From SAR116 cluster bacterium MED-G04 (GTDB lineage: Bacteria; Pseudomonadota; Alphaproteobacteria; Puniceispirillales; UBA1172), in NCBI GenBank assembly GCA_002457135.1, contig NTKX01000006.1, positions 1 through 41,617 on the forward strand: 41,617 nt of DNA, read 5' to 3'. Made by a program: the position numbers and the translations under genes. Below the pieces are notes generated by a model. That model was given only the letters and a program-made list of their open reading frames with translations. It did no database searches and was not told the origin of the DNA. Shown piece by piece: positions 2,849 to 12,985 of the stretch. How positions within the stretch are numbered: the stretch's first letter is position 1; every line of letters begins with the position of its first letter.

Positions 2849-4000
2849 TTAGATCTGTCCAAGCTTCTTTATCCACCCATGCATGACAATAAGGCTGTGT
2901 CCCTGGCCATATTGATGTCCAACGCCCTCAGTCGCCCAGCCTCCAAGTCGGTCAATGATTTCAGCAGGGCATTCAACGGCTCTAAGTCTATCTCTAAAGC
3001 TGTGTCTGAAGGAGTGGATGACACATCCATCTGGTACCCGAGGCTTCAGCCATTTGTTTAGTGCCGCACTGGCAGAGTTTGATTTGGTGTTTTGTCCATC
3101 ACAATACTTTGGAAACAAGAACCCGTTATCAGATGATTCTAGAAGGCGCTCAGAGGCCCACAGAGCGGCACCTACAAGCGGTATGGTACGGGTGCTGCTC
3201 TTTGTCTTTAATGGCCGCCAGTGACTCTCCTGAATCGATACAGAGGGTATGCCGTTTTGAGTGATAATATCGCTAGCCTGAAGCCCTAATGCCTCACTAA
3301 GTCGCATGCCTGTATCGGAGAGTAGGGCAATAAGCCAACGTGCTTCATCGTCTAACTCTCGACACTCTTCCTGAATGGTTCTTATCGTTGCTAACGGTAT
3401 CGGCATCCGTTCAGGGCGGTTGCTTTCGATTTTAGGTAAATACACGGACGCAAACGAGGGGTTTGGGTTCAGGCCGACTTCTCTGCAGGCGAACCAGACC
3501 AAAGCCCTAAGAGTGCTTAGGTTGCGTTTAACGCTTGCTGCCGTAAGGCCTCTTTCAATTAGGCTATCTCTAATGTTGTTCACATCTGATCGGCTAATCG
3601 CATCAATCGGCTTATCTCCACAGCCTTCGATCAAGCAGTTTGCGGCTCTCTCAACGCTATTGAAGAAAGTCTGTGAACGCCCGGTGCCGACTTGCTTCAG
3701 GTAAAGGGCCTTCGCTTCACTTACAGTCGGCCCCTGAGCGGCGGTAATTCCAGCACCTGAGACTTTTCTAAATCGAGATAGCGGACTTTCACACACGTTC
3801 CAGGACAAACTAGACCATTCATCATCCAGCTGTTGCGAGAGCTTTGCGGCGCGGGACTGAGCGACTGCTATCGATTTAGTTCGAAGTGAAAGCGCTATCC
3901 TATCCACCGAGTAATAGCCAAGGAGGGCCTTCGGTACCCTTCTAACGAAGTAATACACGCCGAGTTTACGATAGATATTCGGTGGATATTTGTTCTCCAA
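2849..4000 (-). CDS. Tyrosine recombinase / integrase
   Basis: A full-length 383-residue site-specific integrase. The N-terminal region (residues 8-55, YYFVRRVPKALL) resembles the DUF6538-type domain found on many proteobacterial island integrases; a SAM-like core-binding domain spans about 92-190 and the catalytic domain about 200-375. Catalytic residues visible are R233 (TGMRLSEAL), a lysine at 265 or 267, H329 and R332 (HSFR), W355 in the His/Trp position, and the nucleophile Y364 (HQYGQG). An in-frame TAG lies three codons upstream and there is no ATG near the beginning, so the TTG at 3998-4000, preceded by GGGGTAG, is the only reasonable start. It points away from the adjacent tRNA-Asn, its likely attachment site. 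A diverged copy of its last 72 residues lies at 610-827. Confidence 0.93.
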   Translation of the reverse strand: MENKYPPNIYRKLGVYYFVRRVPKALLGYYSVDRIALSLRTKSIAVAQSRAAKLSQQLDDEWSSLSWNVCESPLSRFRKVSGAGITAAQGPTVSEAKALYLKQVGTGRSQTFFNSVERAANCLIEGCGDKPIDAISRSDVNNIRDSLIERGLTAASVKRNLSTLRALVWFACREVGLNPNPSFASVYLPKIESNRPERMPIPLATIRTIQEECRELDDEARWLIALLSDTGMRLSEALGLQASDIITQNGIPSVSIQESHWRPLKTKSSTRTIPLVGAALWASERLLESSDNGFLFPKYCDGQNTKSNSASAALNKWLKPRVPDGCVIHSFRHSFRDRLRAVECPAEIIDRLGGWATEGVGHQYGQGHSLIVMHGWIKKLGQI

Positions 4001-4008
4001 TTTGTTCT
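3988..4008. repeat. Direct repeat at the integrase start (possible recombinase arm sites)
   Basis: The nonamer atttgttct occurs at 3988-3996 and 4000-4008, 12 bases apart, and a partial inverted version (agaacag) lies near 4056-4062. Position between integrase and tRNA 3' end fits arm-type or autoregulatory binding sites, but the repeats are short and could be chance. Confidence 0.25.
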
Positions 4009-4077
4009 ACCCCGTGCAATGACCGATCGTTAAATCGTATGCAATACAGGTAGTTAGAACAGAATTGGATCGGAAGT

Positions 4078-4152
4078 TGGCTCCCCGGGACGGATTCGAA
4101 CCGCCGGCCAAGCGATTAACAGTCGCTTGCTCTACCGCTGAGCTACCGGGGA
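4078..4152 (-). tRNA. tRNA-Asn (GTT)
   Basis: The minus strand folds as a standard cloverleaf. The acceptor arm TCCCCGG pairs with CCGGGGA, followed by discriminator G and a genome-encoded CCA (tgg at 4078-4080). The D arm contains AGCTCAGCGGTAGAGC, the anticodon loop is CTGTTAA with anticodon GTT, and the T arm contains GGTTCGAATCC. It is the probable attachment site for the integrase whose gene starts at 4000. The tRNA remains complete, so the island either restores its 3' end or inserted beyond it. Confidence 0.95.
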
Positions 4153-4212: not shown

Positions 4213-5274
4213 CTAAGCCATCACTGCTTTTTCAGCTAATTCGGTGACGCTGGCGGCCAGTACCGGAATATCATCAGGCGATAACCCGCCTGCGGTGATA
4301 GCCCCCAGCACATCGCCTTTACGCCGCCGGGTGGAGGATTGATAGGCCGGATCATAATGATCGGTGATGAGCGCGGTAACCAGCCCGTCCCAATCCCCCT
4401 CACTGACCTGCCTGCGCCATTCATCACAGATGGCATGGCCGTGACGATAAACCATCCCGTCAATAAGAACGGTGAGGGTTTCGGGTGAAGCGATGATATG
4501 CGCGTAATCGCGTTTCAGGAATTCTACCCGTGCCGCAATATCAGCCTTGATAAGGATCTGGGGAGCATGTTGCATTTTCTGCCACAGCGCACGCGGGATA
4601 TGGCATTGCCCGATGCGGCTGCTCTCAGCCTCAATCAACACCGGGCGCGATGGGTCGAGCTGGCACAGGGCCTGATGCAAGAGACTTTCAAAATGGCGTT
4701 GACCGGGCTGATCCGCCCCCGGTTCCGCCCCGAGGAGGGAGCCTCTGTGACAGGCCAGGCCCTCCAGATCAAGCACCTGCCCGCCTGCTGCTGACGCTGC
4801 CCGCAAAATATGGGTCTTGGCTGTTCCTGTTGGCCCCTGCAACAGGACAGGGTAGAGGGGGTCAACCCGGGAGATGAGTTCCTCACTGACGCGCTGGCGA
4901 TAATACTTGTAGCCGCCTTCCAGCACAGTGGTGACCCAGCCGATCTCAGCCAGAATACGCGCCATCGAACCTGATCGTTGGCCACCCCGCCAGCAATAGA
5001 CCAGCGGTTTCCATCCCGCCGCCTGATCCTTCAGGTTTTCCTGAATATGCCGGGCGATATTGGTTGCGGCCATGCTGGCCCCCAGTTTTCTTGCCTCAAA
5101 CGGGCTGATCTGTTTGTGGATCGTGCCAACCTTGGCGCGTTCGGCATCACTCAGCACCGGCAGGTTGATCGCCCCCGGGATATGATCCTCGGCAAACTCG
5201 GCCGGGCTGCGCACATCAATAATGGTATCAACATCACGGGTCCATTCCGTGCCAATCCTGATCGGGGCCACCAT
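4213..5274 (-). CDS. mnmH: tRNA 2-selenouridine synthase
   Basis: MnmH (SelU, YbbB) replaces sulfur with selenium in 2-thiouridine at tRNA wobble position 34, using selenophosphate and passing through a geranylated intermediate. The 353-residue protein has the two expected parts: an N-terminal rhodanese domain with IDVRSPAEF near residue 19 and the active cysteine C94 in YCWRGGQRS, and a C-terminal P-loop domain with GPTGTAKT (147-154). Length is normal. Its ATG overlaps the stop of the SelD-fusion gene by one base (TAATG), so the two are translationally coupled. This is direct evidence that selenophosphate is used for tRNA modification here. No selA, selB or tRNA-Sec is in the window, so selenoprotein synthesis cannot be judged. 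Confidence 0.95.
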   Translation of the reverse strand: MVAPIRIGTEWTRDVDTIIDVRSPAEFAEDHIPGAINLPVLSDAERAKVGTIHKQISPFEARKLGASMAATNIARHIQENLKDQAAGWKPLVYCWRGGQRSGSMARILAEIGWVTTVLEGGYKYYRQRVSEELISRVDPLYPVLLQGPTGTAKTHILRAASAAGGQVLDLEGLACHRGSLLGAEPGADQPGQRHFESLLHQALCQLDPSRPVLIEAESSRIGQCHIPRALWQKMQHAPQILIKADIAARVEFLKRDYAHIIASPETLTVLIDGMVYRHGHAICDEWRRQVSEGDWDGLVTALITDHYDPAYQSSTRRRKGDVLGAITAGGLSPDDIPVLAASVTELAEKAVMA

Positions 5275-7499
5275 TACGGCACTGCCCTGATCTGGCCCAA
5301 TCCATCAGCGATCACCTTACCCACCGGCACGGCCATAACGCCTTTATTCCCGCAATCGGCCAGGACGGCATCAAGGAGACGCGGCGGGATCGCCGCCATC
5401 AGGCCGCCGCCTGTCTGCGGGTCATGATATATCGTCGGGGTGAGGCCTTGCCCGGTGAGCAGGGGGTCCATCACAACGGGCGCGGCCTGCCTGTTCATCA
5501 CATCAAGGGAGGATGCATGGCCCGCCCTGATCAGGGTTTCAGCCCCGGGGATGAGCGGCAGGGCCGAATGGTTGAATTCAGCCGACAGGCCCTCATCCGA
5601 ACGTTCCAGCAATGACAGCGTATGCCGCGCCAGGCCAAAGCCGGTGACATCGGTCATCATGAACCCGCCATGGCGGGCAAAAACAGCCGCCGCATCGCCG
5701 TTTGACTGGGCCATGATGGATAGTGCCGCCTGCCGCGTATCACCGCAGGCCAAACGATCACCGGCACCATGGGCCGCCATGATCACCCCGATGCCCAGCG
5801 ATTTGGTCAGGACCAGAATATCACCATCACCGATGGCGGGCGGGTTTATCCCTTTCAGCGGTGTTCCGGTGACCGCGAAACCGACCTGCATGGCGGGGCC
5901 TTCTGCGGTATGGCCGCCGTTCAGCACCGCGCCCTCACTGGCGAGGGCGGTCATCGCCCCGGCCATGATCTGCGCCAGATCATCCTGCTGGAGCCGCGCC
6001 ATGGCAGGCGGCAGGGTGATGACGGCCAGCGCAGAGGCCGGTTTCGAATGACTGGCGTGGAGATCGCTGATGGCATGCAGTGCGGCAATACGGCCAAGGC
6101 TGAACCCGTCATCAACAATGGCTGAGATGGCATCCACGGATTGCACCACCATCTCATTGCCGATTGCCATTGTGCTGCTGTCTTCGGTGATCGGTGTCGA
6201 TGCGGCCAGATCGGGGTAATCCCCCGCCACCATCACGCGGGCGGCATCAATCGCCTCAGCCAGTGTCTGAAACCCTGATTTCGACCCGCAGCCGAGGCAT
6301 CGCATGGGGGCAAGCGCGGGATCATCATCATCCGCATTCACCAGCGAGCGGTTGACAGCAGGCGCCGCCATTTCAGGCAGATCGGAAAATCGGGTCATGA
6401 ATTTGCGGTCAATATATTCCTTGAGCCGCCATCCCGTGTGGCCGAGGTTAAGGCCGAACCCGCCACGCACGGCATAGGCCGTTTTATCGCCAAGGCCGAT
6501 GAGGGCAAGGTACCGGGATTGCGGGGTCCAGTTGATGAGCGGCCGTTTCAGCAGTTGCCGCCTGATATTCTCAGCCAGATACTGGCCCGCCCTGACAGCG
6601 AAAACCCCGGCCTTGGGCCTCGGGTCACGGGTCAGGCTGGCAACATCGCCTGAGACAAAAACATTATCATGCCCGATGGTCTGGAGCGTTGGGTGGACAG
6701 CGATAAACCCCTGATCATCAAGATCAAGGCCCGTTTTGTTGAGCCATCCGGGGGGCGCACCGGCGGTGATCATCAGGGCCAGATCAACCTCAATTTCAGT
6801 TCCGTTTTCAAGGCAAAGCGATTTAGCCCCGATGCGGCTTACGGCCTGACCGAGATGGATATCAACGCCCTTGCGCTCAAGCAGGGATTTCAGGTCACGC
6901 GAAACACCGGCCGGGTATTCAGGGGTCAGCCTGTTGCCCCGCTGAAAAAGGCTGATCCGGCAGTTTGGCAGACGCTGTTTGAGGGAAAAGGCAACCTCAA
7001 CCCCGGCGGCACCCCCGCCGATGATGCTGATATGACGGCCTGATGTATCACCAAGCACAGGGTTGAGCCTGCCCATGAGGGTAGAGATAGGCTTTACCGG
7101 AATGGCGTGTTCGGCGGCCCCTTCAATCGAGGTCAGGTCAGTGTTTGAGCCGATGTTGATCGACAGGGTATCATACCGCATCGGCGGCCGGCCCTTAACA
7201 GTGATGGTTCTGGCATCAGGGTCGATATGGTCAACCGATGCCGCGATAAACCGCGCCCCCGCCAGCCGCGCCAGATGGCTGAGATCAATGACGATTTCAT
7301 CAGCGTCATAAACGCCTTCGAGGAAGCCGGGCAGCATGCCTGAATACGGTGTCATGATATCACGGCTGATCAGCGTGACCCTCAACCCCGGCATGGGTTT
7401 CATGGCCAGGTTTCGCAGCACGGCAATCTGGGCATGGCCGCCCCCCACCAGCACCAGATGCCGGAGGTGAGGCTGTTCAGTATTAACGGTCATGGTCAT
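5274..7499 (-). CDS. selD: FAD-dependent oxidoreductase / selenide, water dikinase fusion
   Basis: A 741-residue fusion. Residues about 14-370 form a pyridine-nucleotide-disulfide (NDH-like) oxidoreductase with the FAD motif GGGHAQ (19-24), the NAD motif GGGAAGVE (161-168) and a late FAD-contact VFVSGDVAS (280-288). Residues about 395-741 are SelD, which makes selenophosphate from selenide and ATP. The SelD active-site region reads MRCLGCGSK: C404 and K407 align with catalytic Cys17 and Lys20 of E. coli SelD, while the second E. coli cysteine is serine. The conserved VDAISAIVDDGFSLGRIAA stretch follows. No in-frame UGA replaces the catalytic Cys. This fusion type is known in bacteria and some protists; the oxidoreductase is thought to supply reduced selenium, which is inference. 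Its ATG overlaps the EamA-transporter stop by four bases. Confidence 0.95.
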   Translation of the reverse strand: MTMTVNTEQPHLRHLVLVGGGHAQIAVLRNLAMKPMPGLRVTLISRDIMTPYSGMLPGFLEGVYDADEIVIDLSHLARLAGARFIAASVDHIDPDARTITVKGRPPMRYDTLSINIGSNTDLTSIEGAAEHAIPVKPISTLMGRLNPVLGDTSGRHISIIGGGAAGVEVAFSLKQRLPNCRISLFQRGNRLTPEYPAGVSRDLKSLLERKGVDIHLGQAVSRIGAKSLCLENGTEIEVDLALMITAGAPPGWLNKTGLDLDDQGFIAVHPTLQTIGHDNVFVSGDVASLTRDPRPKAGVFAVRAGQYLAENIRRQLLKRPLINWTPQSRYLALIGLGDKTAYAVRGGFGLNLGHTGWRLKEYIDRKFMTRFSDLPEMAAPAVNRSLVNADDDDPALAPMRCLGCGSKSGFQTLAEAIDAARVMVAGDYPDLAASTPITEDSSTMAIGNEMVVQSVDAISAIVDDGFSLGRIAALHAISDLHASHSKPASALAVITLPPAMARLQQDDLAQIMAGAMTALASEGAVLNGGHTAEGPAMQVGFAVTGTPLKGINPPAIGDGDILVLTKSLGIGVIMAAHGAGDRLACGDTRQAALSIMAQSNGDAAAVFARHGGFMMTDVTGFGLARHTLSLLERSDEGLSAEFNHSALPLIPGAETLIRAGHASSLDVMNRQAAPVVMDPLLTGQGLTPTIYHDPQTGGGLMAAIPPRLLDAVLADCGNKGVMAVPVGKVIADGLGQIRAVP

Positions 7500-8389
7500 G
7501 ATGCGTTGCGTTCGGGGGTCAGTTCAATGATCAATACAGCGGTAAATATAAGCGTTGCCCCGGCAATCGCCAAGCCTGCCATGGACTGGCCCAGCATCAG
7601 CCAGCCAGCAATGGCGGCAAAAACACCTTCGAGCGACAACAGAATGGCTGAGGCAGTGTTGGAGGCATAACGCTGGGCCACCAGCTGCAAGCCAAAGCCC
7701 AGCCCGGTGGAAAGAACCCCGGCAAACAGCAATTCAGGCAGGGCAGGGGTGATGGCGGCCAGGCTGATTGTCTCGGATGATGGCAGGATGAAAAGAAAGG
7801 CAAAAACCGCCGTCATCGCGGTCTGGCAAAAAGCCAGTTGAAACGGTGCGTCGGTCAGGCGGGCGAGCCAGCCCACCACCATGATATGCCCGGCCCAGAA
7901 CAGCGCGCCAATGGCGACGATAATATCACCGAACACAGCCTCATCAGGGGAAACGCCTGTCATCATGCCGGAACCGATGATGAACACCGCCACCGCACCC
8001 CAGCGGATCACGCTGATATTGCGGCGAAACAGCATCAGCCCGAAAATCGGCACCAGCGGAACATAGAGCGTGGTCAGAAAGGCAGCATTGGCAACACTGG
8101 TATGACCAAGGCTGATCTGTTGCAGGATCGACCCTGTTGCCATCAGCAATCCAAGGCCAAAGACCCCGATCAGCACGGTTTTACCATCAACCGCGCTGAA
8201 CTGGCTGATGAGGGAGACCCGCCGCGCCTCAAACAGCGCAATCGGCAACAGCGCAATCGCCCCGACCAGGAACCGGGCGGCGGTGAAGCCGAGCGGGCCG
8301 AGGGTTTCCATCCCGGTTGTCTGGAATACAAAGGTTGTGCCCCAGATGATCGCCGTCAGGATCAGGAGCCCGTGGGAGATGAGACGCAT
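7496..8389 (-). CDS. EamA/DMT-family transporter
   Basis: A 297-residue integral membrane protein with about ten hydrophobic helices arranged as two EamA repeats. The first repeat opens with GLLILTAIIWGTTFVFQ and the second near residue 150 (DIIVAIGALFWAGHIMVVG), the typical drug/metabolite transporter pattern. It should sit in the inner membrane as a small-molecule exporter or importer. Substrate is unknown. It overlaps the stop of the upstream MFS gene (TGATG) and the start of selD (ATGA), so it lies inside the selenium operon, which raises the possibility of transport of a selenium or sulfur compound. That link rests only on position. Confidence 0.85.
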   Translation of the reverse strand: MRLISHGLLILTAIIWGTTFVFQTTGMETLGPLGFTAARFLVGAIALLPIALFEARRVSLISQFSAVDGKTVLIGVFGLGLLMATGSILQQISLGHTSVANAAFLTTLYVPLVPIFGLMLFRRNISVIRWGAVAVFIIGSGMMTGVSPDEAVFGDIIVAIGALFWAGHIMVVGWLARLTDAPFQLAFCQTAMTAVFAFLFILPSSETISLAAITPALPELLFAGVLSTGLGFGLQLVAQRYASNTASAILLSLEGVFAAIAGWLMLGQSMAGLAIAGATLIFTAVLIIELTPERNAS

Positions 8390-9651
8390 CAGGAATTGGC
8401 CTTTTCAGGATCAGTATTTTCAGGATGGGCATTGCCCCGTTCACGCAGGATAAAATTGATAAACACCGAGGTTCGCGGAATGTAGCGGTAGCTCGACATG
8501 TTGAGCGCAGGGCGAATACCCATCCGCCAGACACTGTAGGTCACCAGCACGATATGAACGCTGGCAATAAAGAGGAACATTGCCCCGGCATTGAAGTTTT
8601 CAATCAGATAACCGCATAACACCGGGCTTAAGATCGCCCCGATTGAAAAGAGCAGGATCAGGGATGCGGATAACTCCACCAGCTCATCGATTTTGGCAAA
8701 ATCATTGGCGTGGGTCGCGCAGATCGAATAGATCGGCATCGTGGCCGCGCCAAACAGGAAGGCCATCAGAAAACCCACCATGACCGTCTGCAACCCGAGG
8801 AAGGAAAGGGAACCCGTGATCAGACAGACAATAATAGCCGCCATCGAAAAGCCGATCAGGACAAAACGCCGGTTGAACCGGTCGGTGATATACCCTGCCG
8901 GAACCTGAATAAAAGCCCCGCCAACAACACCAAGCACCAGAAAAATAGCGATATCCGTTGCCTCCAGCCCGGTTTCAATGGCATAGACCGGCCCGACCAT
9001 CCGGAAGGAAGCATTGGTCATCCCGGCCGAGATAACCCCGAGACCGGCAAGCGGTGACAGCCTGAGCGCAAAGAACGGTTTGAACCGCAGGGTTGCGGGC
9101 AATTCAGGCGGCACAGAACGCGTCAGGGCAAGCGGCATCAGGCTCAGGCACGCGACAACGGCGATGATGTTATAGGCCGCGTAGGTGGCGGGGTCGAGCA
9201 TGGCGATCACCCCCTGGGCCAGGACCACGCCCGACATATCAACCACCCGGTAAATCCCGAAAACCCTGCCGCGATTATCGTTGGTCAGCTTGGCCTGAAG
9301 CCAGCTTTCGATGATGGTATAGGCACCGGCAATCGAAAACCCGGTCATCACCCTCAACATGCACCAGAAGAAAACATCTATAAAAAGCGGGTGAAGCAGG
9401 GCGGAAATGGCGCTGATCGATGCCGTCATGGCAAAGATACGGACATGCCCGGAACGCCGGATCAGGTGAGGATAAATAAAACACCCGATCAACAGGCCCA
9501 GAAAATGCGATGAGCCGAGCAGCCCGATCTGGCCTGCAGTGAACCCGTTGCTCTGCCCCGCCAGGGCATCGAGCGGGCCAAGCGAACCGCTCCCCACCTG
9601 AATGAATATGACGGAGAGCAACAGTGCCGATAGAGAAATGATGAGGGACAT
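8389..9651 (-). CDS. Major facilitator superfamily transporter
   Basis: A 420-residue protein with about 12 hydrophobic segments. The loop after helix 2 (HLIRRSGHVRIF) and the matching loop after helix 8 (YITDRFNRRFVLIG) carry the basic MFS signature pattern of the two six-helix halves. The opening helix, followed by LGSSHFLGLLIGCF, resembles YcaD/UMF-type MFS permeases. A soluble tail of about 40 residues ends the protein. It is the first gene of the run that continues through the EamA transporter, selD and mnmH with 1-4 base overlaps, and is divergent from the MmgE/PrpD gene across 202 bases. Substrate is not readable; a role in selenium handling is only suggested by the operon. Confidence 0.85.
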   Translation of the reverse strand: MSLIISLSALLLSVIFIQVGSGSLGPLDALAGQSNGFTAGQIGLLGSSHFLGLLIGCFIYPHLIRRSGHVRIFAMTASISAISALLHPLFIDVFFWCMLRVMTGFSIAGAYTIIESWLQAKLTNDNRGRVFGIYRVVDMSGVVLAQGVIAMLDPATYAAYNIIAVVACLSLMPLALTRSVPPELPATLRFKPFFALRLSPLAGLGVISAGMTNASFRMVGPVYAIETGLEATDIAIFLVLGVVGGAFIQVPAGYITDRFNRRFVLIGFSMAAIIVCLITGSLSFLGLQTVMVGFLMAFLFGAATMPIYSICATHANDFAKIDELVELSASLILLFSIGAILSPVLCGYLIENFNAGAMFLFIASVHIVLVTYSVWRMGIRPALNMSSYRYIPRTSVFINFILRERGNAHPENTDPEKANS

Positions 9652-9853: not shown

Positions 9854-11227
9854 ATGAACAGTTTCAATACGATTAAGGACATGGTCTTTGGCCTGAACCT
9901 CAACGATATTCCCGATACCGCGCAGCATCAGGCCCGCCGTTGCCTGCTTGATCTGGTTGGCGTGCTGATCGCCGGGCGGACAACACCGCTATCCCGCATT
10001 ATCAATGATCACGCCCACCGCTATTTCCACAGCCCTGATCGGAACGGAACCCTGCTGGGGGACGGGCGGTCTGCCAGCGCACCGGGGATCGCGCTTGCCG
10101 GCGGCATGACGATTGATTCGATTGATGCCCATGACGGCATGAAAAACGCCAAGGGCCACGCCGGATGCGGGGTCTTTCCGGCACTGGTGGCCCTGCTGGA
10201 GACGACGGGGCGGCCCTATGATGATGCCGATTTCCTCACCGCCCTTATCATGGGGTATGAGATTTCCATCCGGGATGCGCTGGCCCTGCATGACAGCGCG
10301 GATGATTATCACACCTCCGGGGCCTGGGTTGCGGTTGGCATTGCCGCCATGGCGGCCCGCGTTCGTGGCCAGACCGAAAACCAGTTGTTCGAAGGCATGG
10401 GGATTGCCGAATACCACGGCCCGCGCAGCCAGATGATGCGCACCATTGATCACCCCACCATGGTCAAGGATGGTTCAGGCTGGGGGGCAATGGCCGGGGT
10501 ATCAGCGGCCCTGCTGGCTGAGGATGGCTTCACCGGCGCGCCTGCCGTGACCGTCACCGACCCGGCGCTTGCCCCGTTCTGGTCCAACCTCGGGCAGGAA
10601 TGGCATATCGTCAATCAGTACATCAAACCCTGGCCTGTCTGCCGATGGGCGCAGCCCGCCGTGACGGCAACGATGATGGTCATGCATAACAATAAGATCA
10701 ATCATGAAACTATTGAAAAGATTACGGTTCATTCATTCCATCAGGCGGTGAGGTTGGCCACGGCAATCCCGCGCAATACCGAGGAAGCGCAGTATTCACT
10801 GCCCTGGCCGGTGGCGGCGGCGGCTGTCCGTGGCCAGTTGGCCGTGGCCGAAATCAGTGAGCCTTTCGATGATGAGAGGATCATGGAACTGGCGCAGTCA
10901 ATGGAATTGCTGGAGGATGACCGCCATAATGCGGCCTTCCCCGGTGAGCGGATTGGCCGGGTTTCCATCACCACGAAATCAGGCGAGGTTTTCCAGTCTG
11001 ATGATATGCGCGCCACCTGGGACCCGGAAGCCCCGCCCAGTGATGATGAGATGATAGAAAAATACCACCAGCTGGCTGATCCGGTGATCGGTCAGGAGCG
11101 GGCCACCCGCATTCGTGCAATGATCGCCGCCATAGGTGAGGATGGGGGGCAAAATGGGGGCCGGCACAGTGTTAAGGGTGGCATGGCGCAACAACTGATC
11201 ACCGAGCTGGGGAAACCGTTCCTATAA
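9854..11227 (+). CDS. MmgE/PrpD family protein
   Basis: A 457-residue protein of normal MmgE/PrpD length. This family includes 2-methylcitrate dehydratase (PrpD), cis-aconitate decarboxylase and iminodisuccinate epimerase, all acting on small polycarboxylic acids. The N-terminal helical domain has RCLLDLVGVLIAGR, and the conserved active-site region reads SIDAHDGMKNAKGHAG near residues 89-104, followed by VFPALVALLE. The hinge and small domain follow (PWPVCRWAQPA near residue 259). No prpB or prpC lies nearby, so a methylcitrate-cycle role is not supported. It is followed after 86 bases by an MttB-family gene, suggesting a shared catabolic pathway; the substrate is unknown. Confidence 0.9.
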   Translation: MNSFNTIKDMVFGLNLNDIPDTAQHQARRCLLDLVGVLIAGRTTPLSRIINDHAHRYFHSPDRNGTLLGDGRSASAPGIALAGGMTIDSIDAHDGMKNAKGHAGCGVFPALVALLETTGRPYDDADFLTALIMGYEISIRDALALHDSADDYHTSGAWVAVGIAAMAARVRGQTENQLFEGMGIAEYHGPRSQMMRTIDHPTMVKDGSGWGAMAGVSAALLAEDGFTGAPAVTVTDPALAPFWSNLGQEWHIVNQYIKPWPVCRWAQPAVTATMMVMHNNKINHETIEKITVHSFHQAVRLATAIPRNTEEAQYSLPWPVAAAAVRGQLAVAEISEPFDDERIMELAQSMELLEDDRHNAAFPGERIGRVSITTKSGEVFQSDDMRATWDPEAPPSDDEMIEKYHQLADPVIGQERATRIRAMIAAIGEDGGQNGGRHSVKGGMAQQLITELGKPFL

Positions 11228-11271
11228 ATATTGGCGTTTCTATAAACACAGGATTTTCTATAAACACTGGC
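11218..11271 (+). repeat. Three tandem 18-base units spanning the MmgE/PrpD stop codon
   Basis: Copies lie at 11218-11235, 11236-11253 and 11254-11271. Each has the core TTYCTATAAAYA; copies 2 and 3 share TTTCTATAAACAC. The TAA stop of the MmgE/PrpD gene lies in copy 1, so the later copies add TAA triplets in the same frame. The array fills most of the space before the MttB gene and is A/T-rich against its surroundings. Confidence 0.8.
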
Positions 11272-11313
11272 CTTACCGTCACCATTTAAGAGATTTTGGC
11301 AGAAAGAGATATC

Positions 11314-12870
11314 ATGTCCGCAAGATCAGAACGCCGGAGCAGGCGGCGCAACACCGATAAGGGGGAGCCATCATCGCTTTCCCCGATTGCCGGCCAACCG
11401 GCGTTCAGGCCGATCCGGAACAGCTGGATGGTGCTGGAACCCCTCAGCACCGATCAGATTGAGGCAGTGCATCAACAATCGCTGAAAATCATCAGTGAGC
11501 TTGGTGTCAAGGTCCTCAGCCCCACGGCCCGCGCCCATTTGAAACAGGCAGGCTGCATCGTTGATGAGGGGGAAGAAATTGTCCGCATGGACCCGGCGTT
11601 TGTTGAGCAGATGGTGGCGAAAGCCCCGGCTGAATTCACGATGACCCCGCGCAACCCGGACCGTGCGCTCACCATTGGCGGCAACATGATCAATTTCGGG
11701 CTGGTCTCAGGCCCGCCCAATGCCCATGACTGCATCAGGGGTCGCCGCCCCGGCAACTTCGCTGATTATCAGGATATTGTTCGCCTGGGGCAGAGCTTCA
11801 ACGCTATTCATTTCATGGGGAATCAGGCGCTTTCCACCAATGATCTGCCCGCCAACACGCGTCATCTGGATTGCATGCTGGCCAATATCACCCTGTCGGA
11901 CAAGATCACGTCATCCATGTCCATCGGGGCTGGCAGGGTGCGGGATGCCGCCGCCATGCTGGCGATCAGCCGGGGCTTGACCCTGGATGAGCTGAAAGAC
12001 AGCCCCACCGCGATGACCAATATCAACGTCAACTCCCCCCGGGTGCTGGATCAGGAGATGTCGGATGCTGCCCTGATGCTGGCCTCAATCGGTCAGGTGG
12101 TGATTGTGACCCCGTTTACCCTGATGGGGGCGATGACCCCGGTGACCTTTGCGGCCGCGCTGGCCCAGCAGAATGCCGAGGCCCTGTTCACCATTGCGTT
12201 GATCCAGTCCTGTCACCCCGGTGCGCCGGTGGTCTATGGCGGTTTTACCTCCAACGTTGATATGAAATCCGGCGCCCCCGCGTTTGGCACGCCTGAAAAC
12301 AGCCGCGCAAACATGGCGGGCGGGCAAATGGCCCGTCGCTACAGCTTGCCTTACCGGACCAGTGCCTGCAATGCCTCCAACACCGTTGACCCCCAGTCTG
12401 CCCATGAAACCCAGATGGCCCTGTGGGGGGCGGTTACGGGTGTCGGCAACCTGATCTATCACGCCGCGGGCTGGCTGGAAGGCGGGCTGGTCGCCTCATT
12501 CGAGAAACTCGTTCTGGATGTCGAAATGCTCCAGATGATGACCAGCCTGATCAGTGACCAGAACTATGATGACAATGACTTTGCCCTTGATGCCATTGGT
12601 GAGGTTGGCCCGGGCGGCCATTTCTTTGGCAATGTGCATACGCTCGAACGTTACAAGACCGCGTTTTACGCGCCGTTTACAAGCGACTGGCAGAATAATG
12701 AAAACTGGGCCGCATCCGGCGGCTTGACCAGCACCCAGCGGGCAACGCAGATCTGGCAGGATATTCTCAAAACCTTTGAGCCACCGGCACTCGACCCGGC
12801 ACGGCTGGATGAGCTTCAGGAATATGTGGCGCGCAGAAAGGAAGACATCGGCACTGGCGAGCCGTCCTAG
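11314..12870 (+). CDS. Trimethylamine methyltransferase (MttB) family protein, non-pyrrolysine type
   Basis: A 518-residue member of the MttB superfamily. The basic N-terminal tail (RSERRSRRRN), the LEPLSTDQIEAVHQQSLKII helix and the later TIM-barrel body are typical. Pyrrolysine-type MttB enzymes contain an in-frame UAG near the middle; this frame has none, so it belongs with the non-pyrrolysine relatives, of which MtgB (glycine betaine methyltransferase) is a characterised example. Such enzymes transfer a methyl group from a quaternary amine to a corrinoid protein. No corrinoid protein or second methyltransferase lies nearby. I prefer the ATG at 11314 (preceded by AGAAAGAG) over an in-frame TTG at 11296. 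The MmgE/PrpD gene upstream is probably co-transcribed. Substrate unknown. Confidence 0.9.
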   Translation: MSARSERRSRRRNTDKGEPSSLSPIAGQPAFRPIRNSWMVLEPLSTDQIEAVHQQSLKIISELGVKVLSPTARAHLKQAGCIVDEGEEIVRMDPAFVEQMVAKAPAEFTMTPRNPDRALTIGGNMINFGLVSGPPNAHDCIRGRRPGNFADYQDIVRLGQSFNAIHFMGNQALSTNDLPANTRHLDCMLANITLSDKITSSMSIGAGRVRDAAAMLAISRGLTLDELKDSPTAMTNINVNSPRVLDQEMSDAALMLASIGQVVIVTPFTLMGAMTPVTFAAALAQQNAEALFTIALIQSCHPGAPVVYGGFTSNVDMKSGAPAFGTPENSRANMAGGQMARRYSLPYRTSACNASNTVDPQSAHETQMALWGAVTGVGNLIYHAAGWLEGGLVASFEKLVLDVEMLQMMTSLISDQNYDDNDFALDAIGEVGPGGHFFGNVHTLERYKTAFYAPFTSDWQNNENWAASGGLTSTQRATQIWQDILKTFEPPALDPARLDELQEYVARRKEDIGTGEPS

Positions 12871-12911: not shown

Positions 12912-12985
12912 TGGAGGCCCGGACCGGAATCGAACCGATGTACACGGCTTTGCAGGCCGCTGCATAACCACTCTGCCACCGGGCC
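12912..12985 (-). tRNA. tRNA-Cys (GCA)
   Basis: The minus strand gives acceptor GGCCCGG paired with CCGGGCC, discriminator U as expected for Cys, and an encoded CCA (tgg at 12912-12914). The anticodon loop is CTGCAAA with anticodon GCA, and the T arm contains GGTTCGATTCC. It lies alone between mttB and the pcm-like gene, on the strand opposite both. Confidence 0.95.

Follow-up and report, generated by a model that had tools for sequence, protein, structure and literature searches.

A selenouridine operon of SAR116 bacteria extended by transporter genes, with an EamA transporter that appears to accompany the oxidoreductase half of NDH-SelD

The window analysed here is the whole stretch of 41,617 nucleotides of contig NTKX01000006.1 (G000:C56) from SAR116 cluster bacterium MED-G04, whose 1.56-Mb genome is 77% complete; the order name of the SAR116 clade is Puniceispirillales (PMC12262181). 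Checking the open reading frames of the window, we found an operon of four genes on the minus strand, in the order MFS-EamA-NDH-SelD-mnmH. The first gene encodes a weakly YcaD-like MFS transporter of 420 aa (8389..9651; PF07690, 109 bits), and the second an EamA/DMT transporter of 297 aa (7496..8389; PF00892, 99.5 bits). The third encodes a fusion (NDH-SelD, 5274..7499) of a FAD/NAD(P)H oxidoreductase, residues ~14-371, with a Cys-type SelD, residues ~400-731, and the fourth, mnmH/selU, a tRNA 2-selenouridine synthase of 353 aa (4213..5274). One base is shared at the MFS/EamA junction (TGATG, 8389), four at the EamA/NDH-SelD junction (ATGA, 7496-7499), and one at the NDH-SelD/MnmH junction (TAATG, 5274). 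Bacterial operons often have overlaps of 1 or 4 bases, from which no substrate can be read. The gene order is kept in relatives, and the arrangement is therefore not due to chance.

Two tRNA genes, both on the minus strand, frame the operon. tRNA-Asn(GUU) (4078..4152) is its conserved 3' anchor and lies beside mnmH in relatives too, and tRNA-Cys(GCA) (12912..12985), outside the operon, is the conserved anchor on the upstream side, as judged from synteny in relatives. Divergent MmgE/PrpD and MTTB genes (trimethylamine methyltransferase family, 629 bits) are located at 9854-12870 of the window, and several genomes of family f1 also have MTTB beside the operon.

Profile searches detected Pyr_redox_2, AIRS and AIRS_C domains in NDH-SelD and a Rhodanese domain in MnmH. 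The NDH half passed TIGR03169 (Nterm_to_SelD) with 425.3 bits against a cut-off of 310, and the SelD half passed TIGR00476 as a true SelD with 192.8 bits against a cut-off of 125; the fusion_not_SelD model TIGR04369 gave 423, below its cut-off of 700. MnmH, composed of the rhodanese domain and a C-terminal part and passing an equivalog model, scored 445.6 bits with NF008752 (cut-off 266) and 349 bits with TIGR03167, also above cut-off. The active-site motif of SelD is CLGCGSK, with CxxC present; in an alignment with the E. coli protein (PDB 3u0o), its Cys and Lys match the GCGCK motif, and TDVTGFG and DPQT-GG are matched too. The initial annotation, made from the letters alone, had described overlaps of 1-4 bases at every junction and an oxidoreductase-SelD fusion followed by mnmH, and both descriptions were borne out. 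No SelA was found in the genome of the window; at its 77% completeness, tRNA selenation is thus the only selenium use visible there.

SelD makes selenophosphate, which MnmH uses to convert 2-thiouridine to 2-selenouridine in tRNAs (PMC2398784), and the substrate of SelD has been predicted to come from the NDH half (PMC2432076). PMC2398784 puts Ndh-SelD fusions at ~40% of the Cys-SelDs of ocean metagenomes, with CxxC in all of them. The window protein is like these fusions (COG1252-SelD), common in marine bacteria, in domain order, Cys-type SelD and CxxC; measured against the parts of PMC2398784 and PMC4561486 that describe them, the protein itself is no different, and the window differs by its co-operonic transporters and the relatives by a flavin reductase. 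A joint selD-mnmH (ybbB) operon is likewise a frequent arrangement (PMC2432076), which the SAR116 version extends 5' by MFS, EamA and, in relatives, the flavin reductase. The fusion and the selD-mnmH pairing are already known; of this extension, MFS-EamA-(flavin reductase)-NDH-SelD-MnmH, no earlier report was found in the literature searched, where the SAR116 papers listed did not contain the word selenium.

Across the order, SelD was above cut-off in 36 of 41 genomes and MnmH in 35 of 41. The window shares the arrangement MFS-EamA-NDH-SelD-MnmH with several genera of families f1 and f3, and a profile search placed EamA between MFS and SelD in G001 as well. Genus g3 has EamA at the locus without MFS, genus g9 has EamA and a flavin reductase (PF01613) without an adjacent MFS, and two genomes (G025 and G039) have MFS and the flavin reductase. 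In G016 the flavin reductase alone stands beside NDH-SelD-MnmH, with neither transporter at the locus, and G033 holds all five genes there. Families f2 and f4 have NDH-SelD and MnmH only, again with neither transporter at the locus. Among the genomes of the order, MFS and EamA have been lost independently of each other. The flavin reductase, ~160-184 aa and absent from the window operon, recurs directly before NDH-SelD in relatives (loci L035, at 10154-10669, L039, L042, L043, L044, L046, L049 and L062), and is a third recurrent operon partner that the initial annotation had not picked up. Where EamA or the flavin reductase meets NDH, junctions of -1 or -4 are frequent. Two genomes (G003 and G007) were selD-less in appearance only, their operons being cut by contig ends.

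In the relatives checked, family f2 included, the operon is enclosed by the tRNA-Cys ... tRNA-Asn block, so its conservation is partly plain synteny. The transporters could on this basis be passengers, preserved by synteny between the two tRNA genes in small genomes and co-transcribed with, yet functionally unlinked to, their neighbours. We regard this as rather unlikely. The syntenic block and an f2 locus (L036) that has NDH-SelD and MnmH there without transporters would fit it, as would the independent losses of MFS and EamA and the divergent D12 methyltransferase gene beside the operon, which is also conserved in one branch. However, EamA stays by NDH while the outer flanks change (MTTB/PrpD, D12 or other genes), was in no case found apart from NDH, and is retained together with it in a genome described below.

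An EamA alignment was scanned against 84,980 species genomes and returned 37 orthologues at an identity of at least 44%. All but one of these (36/37) have as their direct downstream neighbour NDH(-SelD), or a flavin reductase that is followed by NDH(-SelD), and the 37th is at a contig end. The next 43 EamA loci of the scan, at 40% identity or less and from Pelagibacteraceae, Neptunomonas and others, never have such a downstream neighbour. Within the order, every strong EamA match (20/20) is at the locus of the operon. Nothing speaks more strongly for a functional link than this exclusive pairing. The AlphaFold2 model of EamA (pLDDT 93) has the DMT fold shared by the choline importer LicB (7paf, TM-score 0.77), the triose-phosphate translocator (TPT; 5y78, 0.75) and the DMT protein 5i20 (0.73); EamA is only 10-18% identical to these proteins, and the match concerns the fold, not a transferable substrate. 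A sequence search of solved structures with EamA gave nothing usable.

A closed genome of the clade, OY288107.1 (G004; one 2.33-Mb contig, 99% complete), has at the syntenic site EamA, a 4-base overlap and a 374-aa NDH that ends at the domain boundary, with tRNA-Asn 57 bp downstream. The SelD domain and mnmH have been lost precisely from the stretch that separates the NDH domain from tRNA-Asn (L090:9614-11829). No SelD, MnmH or SelA was found in this genome, and no remnant at the locus. The NDH is full-length and scores 419 bits, and its branch in the tree (0.32) is not longer than those of the fused relatives (~0.35-0.45); the EamA branch measures 0.43, versus ~0.15-0.33 in fused relatives. 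EamA and NDH persist here without selenophosphate synthesis, a sign that they share a role for which it is not needed. This natural experiment suggests that the partner of EamA is the oxidoreductase half and not selenophosphate chemistry, as far as can be read from a single event that is undated and possibly recent. Another genome (G009) was not counted as a second loss of the module, since a PurL fragment in it is 99% identical to that of the operon-bearing G006; the absence there is probably an assembly gap.

These observations bear on the proposal of the initial annotation that both transporters are candidates for selenite, selenide or organoselenium transport. For EamA, an invariant partner of NDH(-SelD) in the order, the proposal is weakened, although EamA stays a candidate. 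A dedicated selenium permease, importing organoselenium or selenite or exporting excess selenide or selenol and thereby feeding or protecting NDH-SelD, would be paired exclusively with NDH(-SelD) in SAR116, as EamA is, and the overlaps are suggestive of translational coupling; no organism is known to have a dedicated selenium transporter, so one may have been overlooked (PMC11097638; PMC13188914). Such a permease seems improbable all the same: G004 keeps EamA after the loss of SelD and MnmH, many selenium users of the same order are without EamA, and five other candidate selenium transporters were dispensable in Methanococcus (PMC11097638). We give even less credence to the version in which EamA of SAR116 works in the selenium pathway as a transporter coupled to NDH-SelD, importing marine organoselenium or exporting toxic selenol, and the G004 copy is a relic or has switched to the sulfur analogue. 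If this were true, no dedicated selenium transporter would have been known before EamA.

For the MFS transporter, the proposal found no support. The best curated model, PRK03633, which we take to be YcaD, gave 124 bits, yet its cut-off is 361, so the protein is not a member. Its structural model (pLDDT 80.5) has a generic MFS fold whose nearest solved folds are a galactonate symporter, NorA and VMAT; a sequence search of solved structures produced nothing usable, with SV2 matches only (E 2e-4 or worse), and a literature search on YcaD found generic efflux papers only. The subfamily occurs in 15 genomes of the order, adjacent to selD in 11 of them and elsewhere in 4, and is missing in genus g3, from those genomes that have the fused selD. 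We examined its dependence on selD in 199 genomes of family f26, nearly all from different genera; judged from its size, this family is probably Rhodobacteraceae. MFS and selD occur together in 87 genomes, MFS only in 33, selD only in 60 and neither in 19, giving no association (odds ratio 0.83, P=0.62). In both f26 loci scanned (2/2) the MFS gene adjoins methionyl-tRNA synthetase, and in several other loci it adjoins open reading frames of the same size. One genome (G481) with MFS ~4 kb from selD was set aside as looking incidental, the MFS preceding a 571-aa open reading frame of methionyl-tRNA synthetase size, as in relatives.

In the tree, the selD-adjacent MFS copies were not resolved as a separate clade, the key branches having weak supports (0.106-0.694), and no fixed residue differences separate them from the non-adjacent copies. 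A selenium-specific MFS transporter would account for its place as first gene of the window operon and for the 11 of 15 adjacent copies. Given the lack of association with selD in the other family, the lack of a resolved clade or of fixed residue differences for the adjacent copies and the absence from g3, we consider it highly improbable, and the MFS protein is disfavoured as a dedicated selenium transporter. The MFS test was done in another family, which counts against our preferred explanation, as the SAR116 copies could have specialised.

Outside the order, the NDH domain was found in 68 of 385 genomes spread over the Alphaproteobacteria. Using the MFS and EamA search positions in these 385 class genomes and 32 neighbourhoods that were read, we found no MFS, EamA or flavin reductase gene adjoining NDH outside the order; the linkage is therefore specific to the order in these samples. 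Elsewhere in the class, NDH genes that stand alone likewise have no EamA neighbour. The conserved MFS and EamA neighbours expected around NDH-SelD fusions were thus found within the order for EamA and in part for MFS, and were missing outside it among the class genomes. TIGR03169 proteins that stand alone, lacking a SelD domain, occur in other alphaproteobacteria (L126:7457-8599, L128:8154-9302 and L131:7597-8691), where their neighbours are unrelated, for example an ABC transporter ATPase, an RlmJ-type methyltransferase and a sulfotransferase.

Weighing these results, we lean towards an ordinary selenouridine operon of known kind, in which EamA and MFS are accessory, a dedicated selenium transporter being the best explanation for neither. 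The NDH domain, with NAD(P)H and FAD, would bring selenium to the level of selenide, as the literature predicts; the SelD domain would then make selenophosphate, and at the wobble uridine of tRNAs MnmH would replace sulfur by selenium. EamA, coupled to the NDH gene, would most likely move a small metabolite tied to the redox chemistry of the oxidoreductase, such as a thiol, an amine or a by-product. The MFS protein may be a general exporter from a broadly used subfamily that is here by happenstance, export being the presumed direction, and the flavin reductase of relatives could supply extra reducing power. One further point counts against this explanation: EamA is tied to a locus that is a selenium locus in all but one lineage, and a selenium role predicts the same.

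The case recalls YedE/YedF, where a membrane protein was also proposed as a selenium transporter from its linkage to selD (PMC5322559). YedE belongs to an unrelated protein family and, unlike the MFS subfamily of the window, was reported exclusively in selenium users (PMC5322559). Here, the candidates are cut from two to one, EamA, and the accessory genes rise to three with the flavin reductase. Found in a clade abundant in the ocean, a transporter that is the invariant partner of NDH-SelD makes a worthwhile test case for selenium transport.

On the 3' side of the operon, a tyrosine integrase gene (PF00589 and DUF6538) adjoins tRNA-Asn and mnmH (window 2849-4152). Integrases related to it occupy the same site in three relatives, G001 (L038), G025 (L039) and G018 (L036), so that a recurrent integration site adjoins the selenium operon.
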